This document shows, in pieces, positions 8,367-30,282 of a stretch of DNA of 33,965 bases (the first letter of the stretch is position 1; every line of letters begins with the position of its first letter). The stretch is from a virus. The notes beneath the pieces are model-generated. The model saw nothing but the letters and a program-made list of their open reading frames with translations, made no database searches and was not told where the DNA came from. The translations under genes were made by a program, and so were the position numbers. Location: IMG/VR virus record IMGVR_UViG_3300036781_000182, positions 1-33,965 of that record; one strand, given 5' to 3'.

Positions 8367-9449
8367 TTAAAGAGTGGAGGCTTGTTGGTTGAGAGCGCGC
8401 TTTTGATCCAGACGTGCTCGTTTGGCGGCACGTTCAGCTTTCCTGAGGACCCGCTTGACACGGTGTGCCTCCGACTTTGCCTTGATGGCAGCCAGCTTGT
8501 CCTTGATTACCTGGTTGGTCACGTAGTGGCCGATCTTACCCTCAACGTTGAGGAGTGGACCATGGCGGCGCTTGGCTTCATACATGGTGAGCCCGTCTCT
8601 GGTGTACCTGACTCCGTCTACCCAATAGGGGCGCTTGCCCTTGGTGACGTAGGTATGTAGCCGTGCGGTGGAGGAGATGACCTCCAGTTGGTTGATGGAG
8701 CCGCCGGTTTCATCCAACCAGTGTTGAAAGGTCTGGTAGGTGTTCCCATCAACGTTGGCCTGTGGTGGGCGATGATGCTGGTTGGTGCTGGTGCGCACGT
8801 CATGTTCAGTGGGTGGATCGTTGTGAAGCCAGTACCGAACCGTGTTGACGGGCAGGTTGAGCTTGAGGGCGGTTTCTTCTAGAAAGGAGCGGAGAGTCTG
8901 CTTGCCAGAGGCGGCCCTGAGATCACGAATGGCCTGTCGGTGCTCCGCTGCAAAGGCGTGCTTAGCGGCTCCGCGGGTGGTTGGAGGGCGGAACTCGCCC
9001 TTTGAGTTCCGCACCAGCCCGTTGACGATGAGGCTGACGTGCCCCTGACAGATGCCGTAGATCTTGGCCAACTCCAGCTGGTTGAGCTCCTCCGAGAAGT
9101 AGGCCTCACGCATGGTGGCCACCTGTGCGTTGGTGAGCCGAGGCTGACTGGAGCCGGGGTTGCTTGGAACGACACCCAGCAGGTTGTAGCAGTTGGGGTC
9201 GTTCTTGGCGAGCTGGTCCGAGAGCCGGTTGGCCTCCAGCTGGGTGAGGTCCGTTCTAAGGACGATGAAGTCCCAGTTGGGGTAGGCGGTGTGGTCCGCC
9301 TGCATCTTCGAGTTGTAGTGGGTCCCCAGGCTTAGCTCAGACAGGTGGGTGTAGCGCCGTTCATTCGGCTGCATGGTGCGACCATAGTAGTGGCGACCAG
9401 TGTCAATGTTCAACAAGCTGTAGACGGTGAAGGATGAACCAGGGATCAT
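8367..9449 (-). CDS. GIY-YIG homing-endonuclease-like protein, 360 aa
   Basis: Residues 8-90 form a GIY-YIG nuclease domain: VYS at 9-11, YYG at 21-23, an Arg/Tyr/His patch (NERRYTHL) and an EANRL helix. Residues about 104-150 look like the helix-turn-helix repeat common in phage homing nucleases (LTNAQVATMREAY..LAKIYGI..GHVSLIVNGL). A second possible helix-turn-helix follows near 185-210, and the tail is Lys/Arg/Ala-rich. It interrupts the run of small genes upstream of terminase, as mobile nuclease genes often do. Its ATG overlaps the stop of the 48-aa gene. Confidence 0.85.
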   Translation of the reverse strand: MIPGSSFTVYSLLNIDTGRHYYGRTMQPNERRYTHLSELSLGTHYNSKMQADHTAYPNWDFIVLRTDLTQLEANRLSDQLAKNDPNCYNLLGVVPSNPGSSQPRLTNAQVATMREAYFSEELNQLELAKIYGICQGHVSLIVNGLVRNSKGEFRPPTTRGAAKHAFAAEHRQAIRDLRAASGKQTLRSFLEETALKLNLPVNTVRYWLHNDPPTEHDVRTSTNQHHRPPQANVDGNTYQTFQHWLDETGGSINQLEVISSTARLHTYVTKGKRPYWVDGVRYTRDGLTMYEAKRRHGPLLNVEGKIGHYVTNQVIKDKLAAIKAKSEAHRVKRVLRKAERAAKRARLDQKRALNQQASTL

Positions 9450-10391: not shown

Positions 10392-10404
10392 TAATATTTA
10401 GCGT
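10392..10404 (-). promoter_or_regulatory. Motif CGCTAAATATTAA before the 179-aa gene
   Basis: On the minus strand AAACGCTAAATATTAAGC overlaps the stop codon of the GIY-YIG gene just upstream and precedes the 179-aa gene. It shares a 13-base core with the element at 5707-5719. A nearby GCTAGC (10385-10390) could extend an operator. Promoter function is inferred from recurrence. Confidence 0.45.
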
Positions 10405-10751
10405 TTCTTGCTGGGCTTGGCCCTGCGAGACTTGAGCAGGCGGGCGTGGGCTGAACCATGCTGCATCTTGCGACCACCCACCGTGTCGTTCAGGCAGTAT
10501 GGGTTGGACAACTCTTGAAGTGGACAGAGCACTGCCTCATGGGCGTAGGCCTCCGCCTCAGTGGGGAAGGTGGCGGTGACCGTGGTGGTCCAGCGCTCCT
10601 TCTGGAAGCCGTAGTGCAGGAAGGTGCAGTTTAGGCGGACACCGGAGCCCATGTACCCCGCGGCGACACGCGCTGTGGTTGACTTGCCAATGTAATAAAA
10701 GCCGCTTGGGTGGCGGGTAATGTAGGTGCAATGCACTTTCGGATCCAGCAA
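10398..10751 (-). CDS. GIY-YIG nuclease-like protein, 117 aa, TTG start
   Basis: A minimal GIY-YIG domain fills the protein: TYI at 9-11, YYIGKST at 19-25, an Arg/Gly/Tyr/Met GSG patch and an AYAHEAVL helix carrying the catalytic Glu, followed by a basic tail. I chose the TTG start because a perfect AAGGAG lies five bases before it; the first in-frame alternatives are GTG codons with no such site. The first 121 bases are shared, in another frame, with the end of the upstream GIY-YIG gene, an unusually long overlap. Confidence 0.75.
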   Translation of the reverse strand: MLDPKVHCTYITRHPSGFYYIGKSTTARVAAGYMGSGVRLNCTFLHYGFQKERWTTTVTATFPTEAEAYAHEAVLCPLQELSNPYCLNDTVGGRKMQHGSAHARLLKSRRAKPSKKR

Positions 10752-11750: not shown

Positions 11751-11807
11751 CTTCACCGCAGGCCAGATCATCAAAGTTGGCACCGCTCTCTCTATGTTGA
11801 CACCTCG
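11751..11807 (+). repeat. 57-base direct repeat, left copy
   Basis: 53 of 57 bases match positions 13074-13130, including 29 consecutive identical bases. The repeat ends with TTGACAC, a perfect -35-like hexamer at 11797-11802. A TATGAA 15 bases further could serve as a weak -10. The matching copy encodes the last residues of the polymerase-like protein. Confidence 0.85.
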
Positions 11808-11887
11808 GATTGATGGATATGAAGCTGTCCCGTATAGCAGGTCATCGAATTTGAATGAGAAGTTAGAATTCAATGTACATAGAGACG

Positions 11888-12009
11888 TTACGGTACTTTG
11901 TGGAGGGCGACGGTTGGCGCCTCATCCGTGCAACGCGGAACCTTAGTTGGGTCCTCCACAAAGTACCGTAAACCGGTTAGCCAACCGCCGGTAGCTCCAA
12001 CCAACTAAG
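11888..12009 (+). promoter_or_regulatory. Interlocked inverted repeats (A-B-C-A'-B'-C') before the polymerase gene
   Basis: Three perfectly complementary pairs are arranged in crossing order. A is 11888-11906 with A' 11953-11971 (19 bp, extendable by two). B is 11911-11918 with B' 11980-11987 (CGGTTGGC, 8 bp). C is 11942-11950 with C' 12001-12009 (CTTAGTTGG, 9 bp). Because B and C lie in the loop of A while B' and C' lie beyond A', the pairs form pseudoknots or mutually exclusive folds. A competing local hairpin CGGTT-AGCC-AACCG uses B'. The element ends eight bases before the polymerase ATG, which lacks a normal ribosome site, so control of that gene's translation, a structured RNA or a replication origin are all possible. 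Confidence 0.7.
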
Positions 12010-12016
12010 ACGCATC

Positions 12017-13123
12017 ATGACTCTTCTTCTACGTACTAAACCGGTGCAGGTGTCAAAAACCTTGCTGACTGGGCTCAACTGGCTTCTTACACTAAATCCA
12101 GCGCGGGCCTACAAGTTTCACAGTGCGAGCCTACGTCAGCTTATCTCTAGAGATACAACTCCAGCGGGCAACTTGCTTCACCAATGCTTGAGCAAAACTG
12201 GCACCTACATCAAGGGAAAGCAAACCTTGACCTACCAGGTCAAAACGGATGAGCTCTACGCGCTGGTTGAACGTTATCAGCCAACTGTGCTGCCGACGGT
12301 ACTGACCACTACCTTCTCCAAGATCCAGTTCATGGCCTTTCGAGCCAACAACCCATTTGAGCGGCCAGCTCCAGCACGTGACACCTACAAGCGAGTTGAG
12401 CACCGGGTCTACAGTGACGTGACCTACCTAACTAAAGAGGTGCGCAGCGCGTTGATCAAGCAAGGGTACGACTACGACATCACGGCGTCCATCGCCACGT
12501 TGCTGTATCAGCGCTACTTGAAGGAAGGTGGTGCGGTGCTTCCAACCTTCGCGCGTCTGGTTGAAGATCGCACCACCTTCCGTGCTGAGCTGGCGACCTT
12601 CTCGGGTCTTCCAGTGGAGGCGGTGAAGGAGATCGTCACCTCCATCATCAACGGGGCACAGGTCACACAGCATTGGACCAACTCGATCTGGCAGCACTGG
12701 TTGAAAAATGCTGGTCTCGTCGTCTTTGAGGACTTTCAGGCCCATCCGCTCATTTCTGGTCTCGTCGCCGAGTCAAAGGTGCTTTATGAGCTCATCTGCC
12801 CACTAGAGGATCGAGTTCGCACCCGACGTAAATGGGGAGATGGAGAACAAGTCCGGGCTAACAGCAGGGGTTGGCACCAGTTTCGCCTGTACGCTAAGTT
12901 GGAAGATGAGGTGATGGCGGCGGCCAGCTCCTTCCTCTCCATCCCCACTTGGTACGTGCACGACGGCTTCCTCACACAGGTGGAGCTCTCATCTGTTGAC
13001 CTGATGGCACTGCTCACTCACATTCAGCAGGTGACAGGCTACAAGGTAGATTTTGAGGTCTCGGTGTTGAGCGCTTCACCACAGGTCAGATCATCAGAGT
13101 TGGCACCGCTCTCTCTATGTTGA
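12017..13123 (+). CDS. Minimal palm-domain polymerase candidate (family A / single-subunit RNA polymerase-like)
   Basis: The 368-aa protein shows an ordered set of polymerase-like motifs. Motif A candidate: YDYDITASIATLLYQ at 151-165, with Asp152/Asp154. Motif B candidate: VKEIVTSIINGAQV at 203-216, with Lys204 and a terminal NG. A helix with HQFRLYAKLEDEVM at 287-300 resembles the Glu helix before motif C. Motif C candidate: YVHDGFL at 313-319, the His-Asp pair of family A DNA polymerases and T7-like RNA polymerases. Known members are usually 600-900 aa, so this would be close to a bare palm and fingers. It is the first gene of the plus-strand block, its 3' end is part of a 57-base repeat, and its leader is highly structured. 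The ATG has no clear ribosome site. DNA- versus RNA-polymerase activity cannot be told from sequence; a diverged non-polymerase palm is also possible. Confidence 0.55.
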   Translation: MTLLLRTKPVQVSKTLLTGLNWLLTLNPARAYKFHSASLRQLISRDTTPAGNLLHQCLSKTGTYIKGKQTLTYQVKTDELYALVERYQPTVLPTVLTTTFSKIQFMAFRANNPFERPAPARDTYKRVEHRVYSDVTYLTKEVRSALIKQGYDYDITASIATLLYQRYLKEGGAVLPTFARLVEDRTTFRAELATFSGLPVEAVKEIVTSIINGAQVTQHWTNSIWQHWLKNAGLVVFEDFQAHPLISGLVAESKVLYELICPLEDRVRTRRKWGDGEQVRANSRGWHQFRLYAKLEDEVMAAASSFLSIPTWYVHDGFLTQVELSSVDLMALLTHIQQVTGYKVDFEVSVLSASPQVRSSELAPLSLC

Positions 13124-13130
13124 CACTTCG
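13074..13130 (+). repeat. 57-base direct repeat, right copy
   Basis: This copy spans the last codons and the stop of the polymerase-like gene and ends with TTGACA at 13120-13125. A weak -10 (TGTATG, 17 bases on) precedes the next gene. Of the three differences from the left copy that fall in codons, two change the amino acid, so conservation is more likely for a DNA or RNA signal than for protein. Confidence 0.85.
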
Positions 13131-15640: not shown

Positions 15641-15850
15641 ATGGAAGAAGTCCAAATTGCCGATAGTTCATGGGTTAATAGCGCGTCCTACGACGAAGCT
15701 AGCCAGGAGCTCCACACCAACCTGTCCGGAGTGGACTACACCTACTATGGTGTGCCGCCTGACGTGGTCAAGGGTCTGGCCAGTGCAGGTTCAGCCGGTG
15801 GGTACATGAACGGCGCCATCAAGGGCGTCTACTCGTACCAACGTAGGTAA
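15641..15850 (+). CDS. KTSC-domain protein
   Basis: The 69-aa protein matches the small KTSC fold: a Ser-rich start (SSWVNSASYDEASQELHTNL), a YTYYGVPPDVVKGLASA core and a GGYMNGAIKGVYSYQRR end, the last part close to the family's K-YxN-IKG-YxY pattern. KTSC domains occur alone or fused to lysyl-tRNA synthetase and other proteins and are thought to bind nucleic acid; their phage role is unknown. An ideal AAGGAG lies eight bases before the ATG. It has its own promoter-like motif, and a hairpin-rich segment follows at once. Confidence 0.85.
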   Translation: MEEVQIADSSWVNSASYDEASQELHTNLSGVDYTYYGVPPDVVKGLASAGSAGGYMNGAIKGVYSYQRR

Positions 15851-28972: not shown

Positions 28973-29368
28973 ATGGAAGATGCACTCAAGAAGTATTTAT
29001 CCCACAAATCGCGTGTAGAGCAAGCAGAATTGCATGGTAAGACAGATCGTGCAGGCAATGTGGTCAAATTCCTATTGAGTTTTGACCAATGGATGTTGAT
29101 CTGGGAAGAATCTGGTCACTGGGACCAGCGTGGTAGACGAAAGGGCCAATTCGTCATGTCGAGAAAAGACGATCTTGGCAACTATGAGCCAGGCAATGTG
29201 TTTATCCAAACTGGGCAGCAAAATGCGCAAGACGCCAAGTTTTGGAGCAACGCAACTACTGGCATGAAATGGTTCTATGACCCGGTGTCACTGAAACAGC
29301 GCCGTGCCTTTGTTGCTCCCGAAGGGTTTGTGCCTGGCCGAGAGCCTCGTCACATCGGAAGCAGATGA
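28973..29368 (+). CDS. HNH / intron-endonuclease-like protein, 131 aa
   Basis: The central segment LSFDQWMLIWEESGHWDQRG, then FVMSRKDDLGNYEPGNVFIQ and an Asn-rich helix, is a widespread phage module usually annotated as HNH- or homing-endonuclease-like. The end GMKWFYDP..., EGFVPGR resembles the terminal part of NUMOD3-type proteins. No complete HNH catalytic triad is visible, so nuclease activity is uncertain. It is on the plus strand against the late arm and overlaps the 3' end of the hydroxylase gene. I chose ATG 28973, as GGTGGAAC precedes it; 28961 is an alternative. Confidence 0.65.
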   Translation: MEDALKKYLSHKSRVEQAELHGKTDRAGNVVKFLLSFDQWMLIWEESGHWDQRGRRKGQFVMSRKDDLGNYEPGNVFIQTGQQNAQDAKFWSNATTGMKWFYDPVSLKQRRAFVAPEGFVPGREPRHIGSR

Positions 29369-29906
29369 TCAGCGTCATGCGGTCATGTTCAGTCTGATTT
29401 GTGACCCAGTGTTCGTGCCAGTTGTCAAAGTACCACACATCGCCAGGAGCTGGCTCAACTGAAAGTTCTTCAACACAGAAAAATTGTCCAGGGGCTGAGG
29501 TGATGGACACCGCAACCTTCTCAAAGTGATCAGCGTGCCAGGAGCCTTTACCACCGTCCACATGTGGATGACAGGTGGCACCGGGTGGTTGGCGCGTGAT
29601 CAGCACTCCACCAAGCTCCTTGGCCTTCAGGTGGCTCATGACCTCATCTACCAGGTCCTTCACTGGAAGAACCTTTGCAAGATCAAGCCATCGACTGATA
29701 TGTACGCCATCCGTCACTGAATCTTGGCCGGCATAGCGCACCCAGATGTCACTCAGCTCATGGTGAGGAGAATCAGGGTGAGCAGTACGTGCGGTGTTCA
29801 TGTCCCACAGATGCGGGTACCTCTCCAGTATGTCATGCAGCTTGGAAGTGTCCACCTTGAAGGGCAACAGCTCAAGCTTTTTCAATGAATTCTTCGTCGA
29901 TGTCAT
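29256..29906 (-). CDS. 2-oxoglutarate/Fe(II) hydroxylase-like protein (aspartyl/asparaginyl hydroxylase type)
   Basis: The product has a double-stranded beta-helix hydroxylase signature. HxD is in HPHVDGG (His115, Asp117 from this start), the second His is in NWHEHWVTN (His166), and the Arg binding 2-oxoglutarate follows in HDRMTLIICFR (Arg176). The place of the motifs fits the aspartyl/asparaginyl beta-hydroxylase group. The start is uncertain: ATG 29930 is also possible, and both overlap the cupin gene, without a clear ribosome site. The last about 35 residues run antisense to the HNH-like gene and lie beyond the conserved domain. Its substrate (virion or host protein) is unknown. Confidence 0.7.
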   Translation of the reverse strand: MTSTKNSLKKLELLPFKVDTSKLHDILERYPHLWDMNTARTAHPDSPHHELSDIWVRYAGQDSVTDGVHISRWLDLAKVLPVKDLVDEVMSHLKAKELGGVLITRQPPGATCHPHVDGGKGSWHADHFEKVAVSITSAPGQFFCVEELSVEPAPGDVWYFDNWHEHWVTNQTEHDRMTLIICFRCDEALGQAQTLREQQRHGAVSVTPGHRTISCQ

Positions 29907-30282
29907 CAGCGTCAGTCTTGTCAGTTTCATGGATGCAGTGCCATTCACAAGGTGTTAGTGGAGTGACGGAGTGCACCTTACGTGCCTTGATCGTCAGCTC
30001 AACTGGGCCGGTATACTCAATGCTCACCCCATCCACCTCAACCAGAGCTCGACCTGAGATCAACTTGCTCTGGTGATCGAAGGTGTGGCGATGTTGATCA
30101 AAACGGATGCCAGGTGGGAGCATGCACTTCTTGATGTAGTACCCACCTTCAAACACGTGCTCCACCGTCATGTGCTTTAGTGGATCAGGGTCAATTGAAG
30201 CTGGTTGCACTGCGCGTTCCTTGTTTATCTGATCCAACCAGGCCATTACGGCTGGTCCACCTGCTAAAAACGCCCATGGCAT
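29872..30282 (-). CDS. Cupin-domain protein, 136 aa
   Basis: A single cupin barrel. The first motif is LPPGIRFDQHRHTFDHQSKL with His64, His66 and His70 near Gln/Asp, then GRALVEVDGV. The second motif includes KARKVHSVTPLTP with His104. Two His plus an acidic residue form the usual metal site. GGAGG precedes the ATG, which overlaps the stop of the PKD gene (TAATG). It is paired with the hydroxylase gene downstream, and the pair may modify a virion part or work in host metabolism; the sequence does not say. Confidence 0.75.
   Translation of the reverse strand: MPWAFLAGGPAVMAWLDQINKERAVQPASIDPDPLKHMTVEHVFEGGYYIKKCMLPPGIRFDQHRHTFDHQSKLISGRALVEVDGVSIEYTGPVELTIKARKVHSVTPLTPCEWHCIHETDKTDADDIDEEFIEKA

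Follow-up and report, generated by a model that had tools for sequence, protein, structure and literature searches.

A short, divergent TV-Pol-like protein as the only recognisable polymerase of a 34-kb phage genome

The window, meaning the whole stretch of DNA that was analysed, was the IMG/VR record IMGVR_UViG_3300036781_000182 (33,965 nt). It begins and ends with the same 127 nt, an exact end repeat. The window is a complete circular map of a genome of about 33.8 kb, and missing replication genes are therefore not an effect of truncation. The portal, large terminase and major head protein matched PHROGs families, and the closest named phages, based on the portal, were P22-like podophages and their relatives. 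The locus under study contains the following features.

11751-11807, + strand: first copy of a 57-bp direct repeat, upstream of the polymerase gene
11888-11971, + strand: inverted repeat with perfect 19-bp arms (11888-11906 and 11953-11971), upstream of the polymerase gene
11908-12009, + strand: two inverted repeats interleaved with the 19-bp one (11908-11918/11980-11990 and 11942-11950/12001-12009)
12017-13123, + strand: TV-Pol gene (P0001, 368 aa), called from the ORF, codon usage and profile match
13074-13130, + strand: second copy of the 57-bp direct repeat, 93% identical to the first, sharing 50 nt with the 3' end of the TV-Pol gene

The codon usage of 12017-13123 fitted that of the phage structural genes in its own frame only (+0.096 bits per codon), and the other five frames ranged from -0.39 to -1.05 bits per codon against the same usage. 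The 368-aa protein was unmatched in direct searches of Pfam, PHROGs, NCBIfam, PADLOC and PDB sequences, and plain BLAST-type searches of INPHARED, PLSDB and IMG/VR also gave no match. Elsewhere in the window, an Aspartyl/asparaginyl beta-hydroxylase domain was found at 29256-29948 of this small phage (- strand, Pfam E 2.4e-7), marking a 2-oxoglutarate oxygenase, and a KTSC domain protein was encoded in the early operon at 15641-15850 (+ strand, Pfam E 2.2e-12). Two ORFs near the early/late divergence (8367-9449 and 10398-10751, - strand) had weak GIY-YIG matches and are probably homing endonucleases.

The TV-Pol family was described in 2008 as minimal relatives of family A DNA polymerases, present in mobile elements, virophages and the Microcystis phage Ma-LMM01 (PMC2579912). 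A DNA pattern for TV-Pol motif A (EIDI-N-QP) retrieved 111 stretches from IMG/VR, from which 75 ORFs were retained that had both motif A and a His-Asp motif C. A profile of these phage TV-Pols alone did not raise the window protein above shuffles, and its weak matches were colinear. This gap was bridged by HDG-type members only. Ma-LMM01 gp030, which adjoins a transposase, agrees with the window protein in its K-x8-G 'INGA' O-helix and its HDG motif C; we took it to be the Ma-LMM01 TV-Pol of Iyer et al. by motifs and position, the text of that paper giving no gene number. A tblastn search from gp030 led to a Polaromonas plasmid protein that aligned with residues 138-345 of the window protein, and further HDG-type members were reached next in plasmid pW9NP1 and Vibrio phage GR11A.

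A profile of four members (Polaromonas plasmids pH8NP1 and pW9NP1, Ma-LMM01 gp030 and Vibrio phage GR11A), from which the window protein was left out, scored that protein at 44.6 bits (E 4.8e-13). The next best score was 4.8 bits in a decoy set of 500 shuffles and all other ORFs of the window phage and its sister phage, so that the motifs noticed in the initial annotation are beyond chance. A second pattern gave five more IMG/VR TV-Pols (L140-L144) of 325-391 aa. With a nine-sequence profile the window protein reached E 4e-14, and hhalign gave Prob 97.6 and E 3e-12 over 199 columns. In the tree, it joined the HDG/YDG members with a support of 1.000 on a long branch, and its identity to TV-Pol relatives was 13-19%. 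That the 368-aa protein is a TV-Pol, or has a family A-like palm, we regard as nearly certain, and judged by its sequence it is a new, divergent member of this sparsely studied and poorly annotated family. The initial annotation had described it as very small and as a minimal member. The size holds in comparison with family A enzymes and loses its distinction within TV-Pols, given the length of L140-L144, and the protein cannot be called an unprecedented minimal form, since the family has been known since 2008 with other members of 325-440 aa (PMC2579912).

Several observations were made on the family itself. Genome contigs and 369 genomes from the class of a beta-proteobacterial MAG were scanned with a Polaromonas TV-Pol and yielded one truncated copy, so no rich host family could be built. 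At L136:252-1307, a truncated TV-Pol of a freshwater beta-proteobacterial MAG adjoins a Fic-like ORF and has the look of a degraded mobile element. In IMG/VR, at least 75 phage ORFs (L019-L129, approximately 380-445 aa) carry the TV-Pol motifs GR-HTNFT, EIDI-NSQP and TVHDSI; one of them was searched and had no significant Pfam or PHROGs match, and they seem to form a whole phage polymerase family that is unannotated. ORFs beside the short TV-Pols of L140, L142, L143 and L144 resemble PD-(D/E)XK nucleases by eye (e.g., L142:7123-7596 and L143:12301-12801), and a polymerase-nuclease pair is possible. The pair of L142 (7123-8771) lies upstream of terminase genes.

Within the 368-aa protein, the motif positions given in the initial annotation were confirmed: D152/D154, V203-A214 (VKEIVTSIINGA), the Glu helix with E296, and Y313-L319 (YVHDGFL). 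The features of the protein are as follows.

12056-12277, + strand: N-terminal winged helix-turn-helix-like domain, residues 14-87, from the AF2 element order and a TV-Pol profile match
12404-12406, + strand: R130, the beta-hairpin Arg said to be absolutely conserved in TV-Pol/family A, invariant in the 21- and 17-sequence alignments
12470-12490, + strand: motif A, residues 152-158 (DYDITAS), with catalytic candidate D154, which is invariant; predicted strand 150-156
12614-12658, + strand: motif B or O-helix, residues 200-214, with K204 and G213; helix 200-211, pLDDT ~83-86
12872-12934, + strand: helix 286-306 (AF2) with conserved E296, invariant in the 17-sequence table
12950-12976, + strand: motif C hairpin, residues 312-320 (WYVHDGFLT), with catalytic candidate D316, which is invariant; strands 312-314 and 317-320

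R130, D154, K204, G213, E296 and D316 were unchanged across 17 aligned TV-Pols. In a 21-sequence MAFFT alignment the invariant residues were R130, R143, D154, K204, G213 and D316, and E296 was placed differently. In the D-x-D pair, D154 is invariant and D152 is replaced by N or E in other TV-Pols. The fingers RxxxK motif keeps its Lys (K204, together with G213) and has Val200 at the Arg position, this Arg being likewise absent in other HDG-type members. Asn212, which is common to gp030 and L142, occupies the O-helix position that holds Tyr/Phe in most relatives; both Asn212 and A157 depart from the common TV-Pol residues in the 17-sequence table. The protein is probably an active DNA-synthesising enzyme, as far as catalysis can be read from these residues.

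Structure prediction and a fold search, the check proposed with the initial annotation, recovered a palm. AF2 with the alignment of 21 TV-Pols gave palm and fingers plus an N-terminal winged helix at a pLDDT of 65.4 and a pTM of 0.55; single-sequence AF2 was uninformative (pLDDT 34.8). Local pLDDT was approximately 83-90 over palm/fingers residues 160-210, below 50 at residues 91-107 and 111-130, and below 60 in the poorly modelled hairpin around R130. Of the two-helix coiled-coil thumb of TV-Pols, one helix (92-111) was predicted at low confidence, and this region is clearly shorter than that of other TV-Pols. The elements predicted for residues 14-87 were H14-24, E31-35, H36-42, H49-55, E58-60, E70-75 and H77-87, and the name 'winged helix' is a reading of this order. 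The wing, 'GTYIKGKQTLTY', is common to other TV-Pols; residues 14-87 were also the best, though weak, match to the phage TV-Pol profile and could be included in a multiple alignment with TV-Pols.

In the Foldseek search of the PDB, Klenow was the best match (E 8.5e-4) and the sole one below 1e-3, followed by Taq, Bst, T7 DNA polymerase and Pol theta; all 50 PDB matches listed were family A DNA polymerases. The viral library gave 17 matches below 1e-3, with the replication proteins of Zamilon and the Qinghai Lake virophage ranking among the best, and with the polymerase of the Barba phage (Barba31A) lower among the viral matches. TM-scores were modest (at most 0.47 by query length), so that the fold assignment is right in kind and not in detail; the model is of middling confidence, steered by an alignment of 13-19% identity. 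Profile homology, invariant motifs and predicted fold thus agree with the earlier reading of the protein as a homologue of palm polymerases that is related to family A. Readings as a reverse transcriptase or an archaeo-eukaryotic primase, suggested by the D-x-D and a retron-like leader, were dropped on account of the His-Asp-Gly of motif C and of the profile and fold, which indicate family A.

Upstream of the gene, the 19-bp inverted repeat is longer than any other perfect local one that a scan of the genome in 209-nt windows gave; the runner-up has 13 bp, and shuffled sequences reached no more than 11. With the two repeats interleaved with it, it forms a cluster of three (11888-12009) that stops 7 nt before the TV-Pol start codon, and the 19-bp repeat is a candidate origin or leader structure. 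This structure matched no Rfam family, and a comparable inverted repeat was absent upstream of other TV-Pols. A 28-nt core of the 57-bp direct repeat is identical in both copies and occurs exactly twice in the genome, each time before a + strand gene. The promoter scan found no sigma-70 site from the 57-bp repeats, which may act as operators or mark the borders of an inserted cassette. Part of the repeat core, TCTCTATGT (11789-11797), is complementary to ACATAGAGA (11877-11885), just before the 19-bp inverted repeat, and this complementarity possibly links the 57-bp repeat and the hairpin.

No helicase, primase or second polymerase was detected in the window phage by Pfam scans of approximately 30 proteins or by a DnaB profile run alongside positive controls, and a search for Walker-A motifs returned the terminase only, plus a chance match in a GIY-YIG protein. 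These scans bear out the claim that this protein is the only recognisable polymerase and is accompanied by no primase or helicase. The helicase or recombination gene usually associated with TV-Pols was likewise not found near this one by Pfam, the DnaB profile or Walker-A; the association is not defining, and stand-alone forms have been described. PolA-SSB (CCPol-MP) primases have an adjacent OB-fold ssDNA-binding partner; the two ORFs downstream of the TV-Pol gene (156 and 132 aa) had no family match, and short unmatched early genes could encode an initiator or ssDNA-binding protein. The sister phage, IMG/VR contig G001 (L014, L015), is complete and circular (33,721 bp, with a 127-nt end repeat), and its identity to the window phage is 60% in the capsid (MCP), 41% in the portal and 41% in the terminase. 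It has no TV-Pol, no recognisable polymerase and no recognised replication gene. Since a complete sister phage lacks a recognisable polymerase, the lineage is probably copied by the host replisome. The simplest reading of the TV-Pol in the window phage is an added starter or accessory.

As a starter of DNA copying that works with host helpers, the protein is more likely to be understood than as a lone copier of the phage genome. It combines a winged-helix-like, presumably DNA-binding N-terminus, a very short thumb region and a family A palm and fingers with complete catalytic motifs, and has no exonuclease domains. It would make short DNA starts as a template-dependent polymerase/primase working at an origin or close to one, priming rather than elongation being its presumed task. 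The inverted repeats clustered directly before its own gene are the candidate origin, and copying of the genome would then pass to the host replisome (helicase, clamp and Pol III), on whose helicase it would depend. Priming near an origin is proposed by analogy. TV-Pols were predicted to be primase-polymerases that replace primases beside D5 helicases (PMC2579912), and CCPol, counted as a family member, primes de novo when bound to MP and extends primers only when MP is absent (PMC7581432). On the Polaromonas plasmid pW9NP1, the TV-Pol adjoins a RepA initiator; plasmid pH8NP1 is of the same RepA_C type (PMC6015842). The inverted-repeat cluster as the priming site is a guess, because such repeats were not seen upstream of other TV-Pols. 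Against a priming role, the neighbourhood of the gene yielded neither an initiator nor a helicase nor an MP-like ssDNA-binding partner, although a helicase or recombination gene accompanies most TV-Pols described so far; priming by the window protein alone is also not given, because CCPol needs MP. Taken jointly, the identity as a divergent TV-Pol and the initiation or priming role are slightly favoured.

The sister phage manages without a TV-Pol, so its function may be accessory. The protein could be a repair, translesion or accessory polymerase, or a passenger cassette with the 57-bp repeats as its borders, dispensable for replication as proposed for phage divPolA2. Its absence from the complete sister phage and the direct repeats flanking the gene agree with this, TV-Pol elements elsewhere are mobile and repeat-flanked (PMC2579912), and divPolA2, also a thumb-less phage PolA, has been argued to be a repair enzyme or RNA polymerase (Yutin 2024, PMC11348598). 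However, the 57-bp copies lie upstream of two + strand genes and might just as well serve as promoters or operators, neither a recombinase nor a transposase was found, and divPolA2 phages have a second, replicative PolB, which the window phage lacks. We consider an accessory or passenger role unlikely, though the next most probable after the starter role.

The initial annotation held that the protein could replicate or transcribe the genome. In favour of a sole replicative DNA polymerase copying all 33.8 kb, it is the only recognisable polymerase of a complete genome and has a family A fold; yet no recognisable helicase, clamp or exonuclease accompanies it, no polymerase is recognisable in a sister phage of equal size, and phages without replication genes depend on host machinery (PMC11348598). 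With no helicase to open the strands and TV-Pols tied to initiation and priming (PMC2579912, PMC7581432), replication or transcription of the genome by this protein alone was not supported, and sole replication is improbable. Equally doubtful is a self-sufficient starter, in which the winged helix would bind the inverted-repeat origin, palm and fingers would prime without helicase, ssDNA-binding partner or full thumb, and Asn212 would confer an unusual nucleotide selectivity.

A His-Asp motif C is also found in T7-like RNA polymerases, and such an enzyme might transcribe phage genes from the repeated 28-nt element, whose two exact occurrences both precede + strand genes. However, the 50 PDB fold matches listed were DNA polymerases, there was no Pfam match, T7-like promoter-recognition domains are too large for 368 aa, and neither of just two 28-nt copies precedes the minus-strand late genes, which makes this reading very improbable. 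An inactive palm relic with a regulatory DNA-binding role would suit the winged-helix-like N-terminus, the departures at Asn212 and A157, and the possibly vestigial RRM cores of some PolA-SSB pairs (PMC10061031), but is hardly credible when all six invariant residues are kept at an otherwise 13-19% identity to relatives.

The TV-Pols searched here had no counterpart in Pfam or NCBIfam and almost none in PHROGs, so small phages carrying them look devoid of replication genes. DNA priming has been shown for one family member, with a partner protein only. A short stand-alone TV-Pol in a 34-kb phage without a recognisable helicase would be a simple system for testing the minimal requirements of a family A enzyme to start DNA.

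The window protein was finally compared with known systems. The HDG-type TV-Pols (Ma-LMM01 gp030, pH8NP1, pW9NP1 and GR11A) have R130, D154, K204, G213, E296 and D316-G317 in common with it, likewise lack an exonuclease, and are likewise found in mobile elements and phages. They are 501-617 aa in length, whereas the window protein has 368 aa and a shorter thumb region, and, in contrast to theirs, its gene neighbourhood contains neither a resolvase, transposase or integrase nor a D5 helicase or Rep gene. By description, CCPol of SCCmec (Bebel 2020, PMC7581432) is also an exonuclease-less family A domain with two similarly spaced catalytic Asp (D169/D324 versus D154/D316). However, CCPol is close enough to Pol I for PolA annotation and acts together with MP and the Cch2 helicase (PMC7581432). 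Neither partner is recognisable in the window phage. Again by description, the divPolA2 that barbaviruses and further phages carry (Yutin 2024, PMC11348598) resembles the window protein in having a family A palm without recognisable thumb or exonuclease and an N-terminal domain, but barbaviruses have a separate PolB (PMC11348598), unlike the window phage. Compared with E. coli Pol I Klenow and T7 DNA polymerase, the window protein has no 3'-5' exonuclease domain, a reduced thumb and a sequence undetected by Pfam models, while its model has the palm and fingers fold in common with both.
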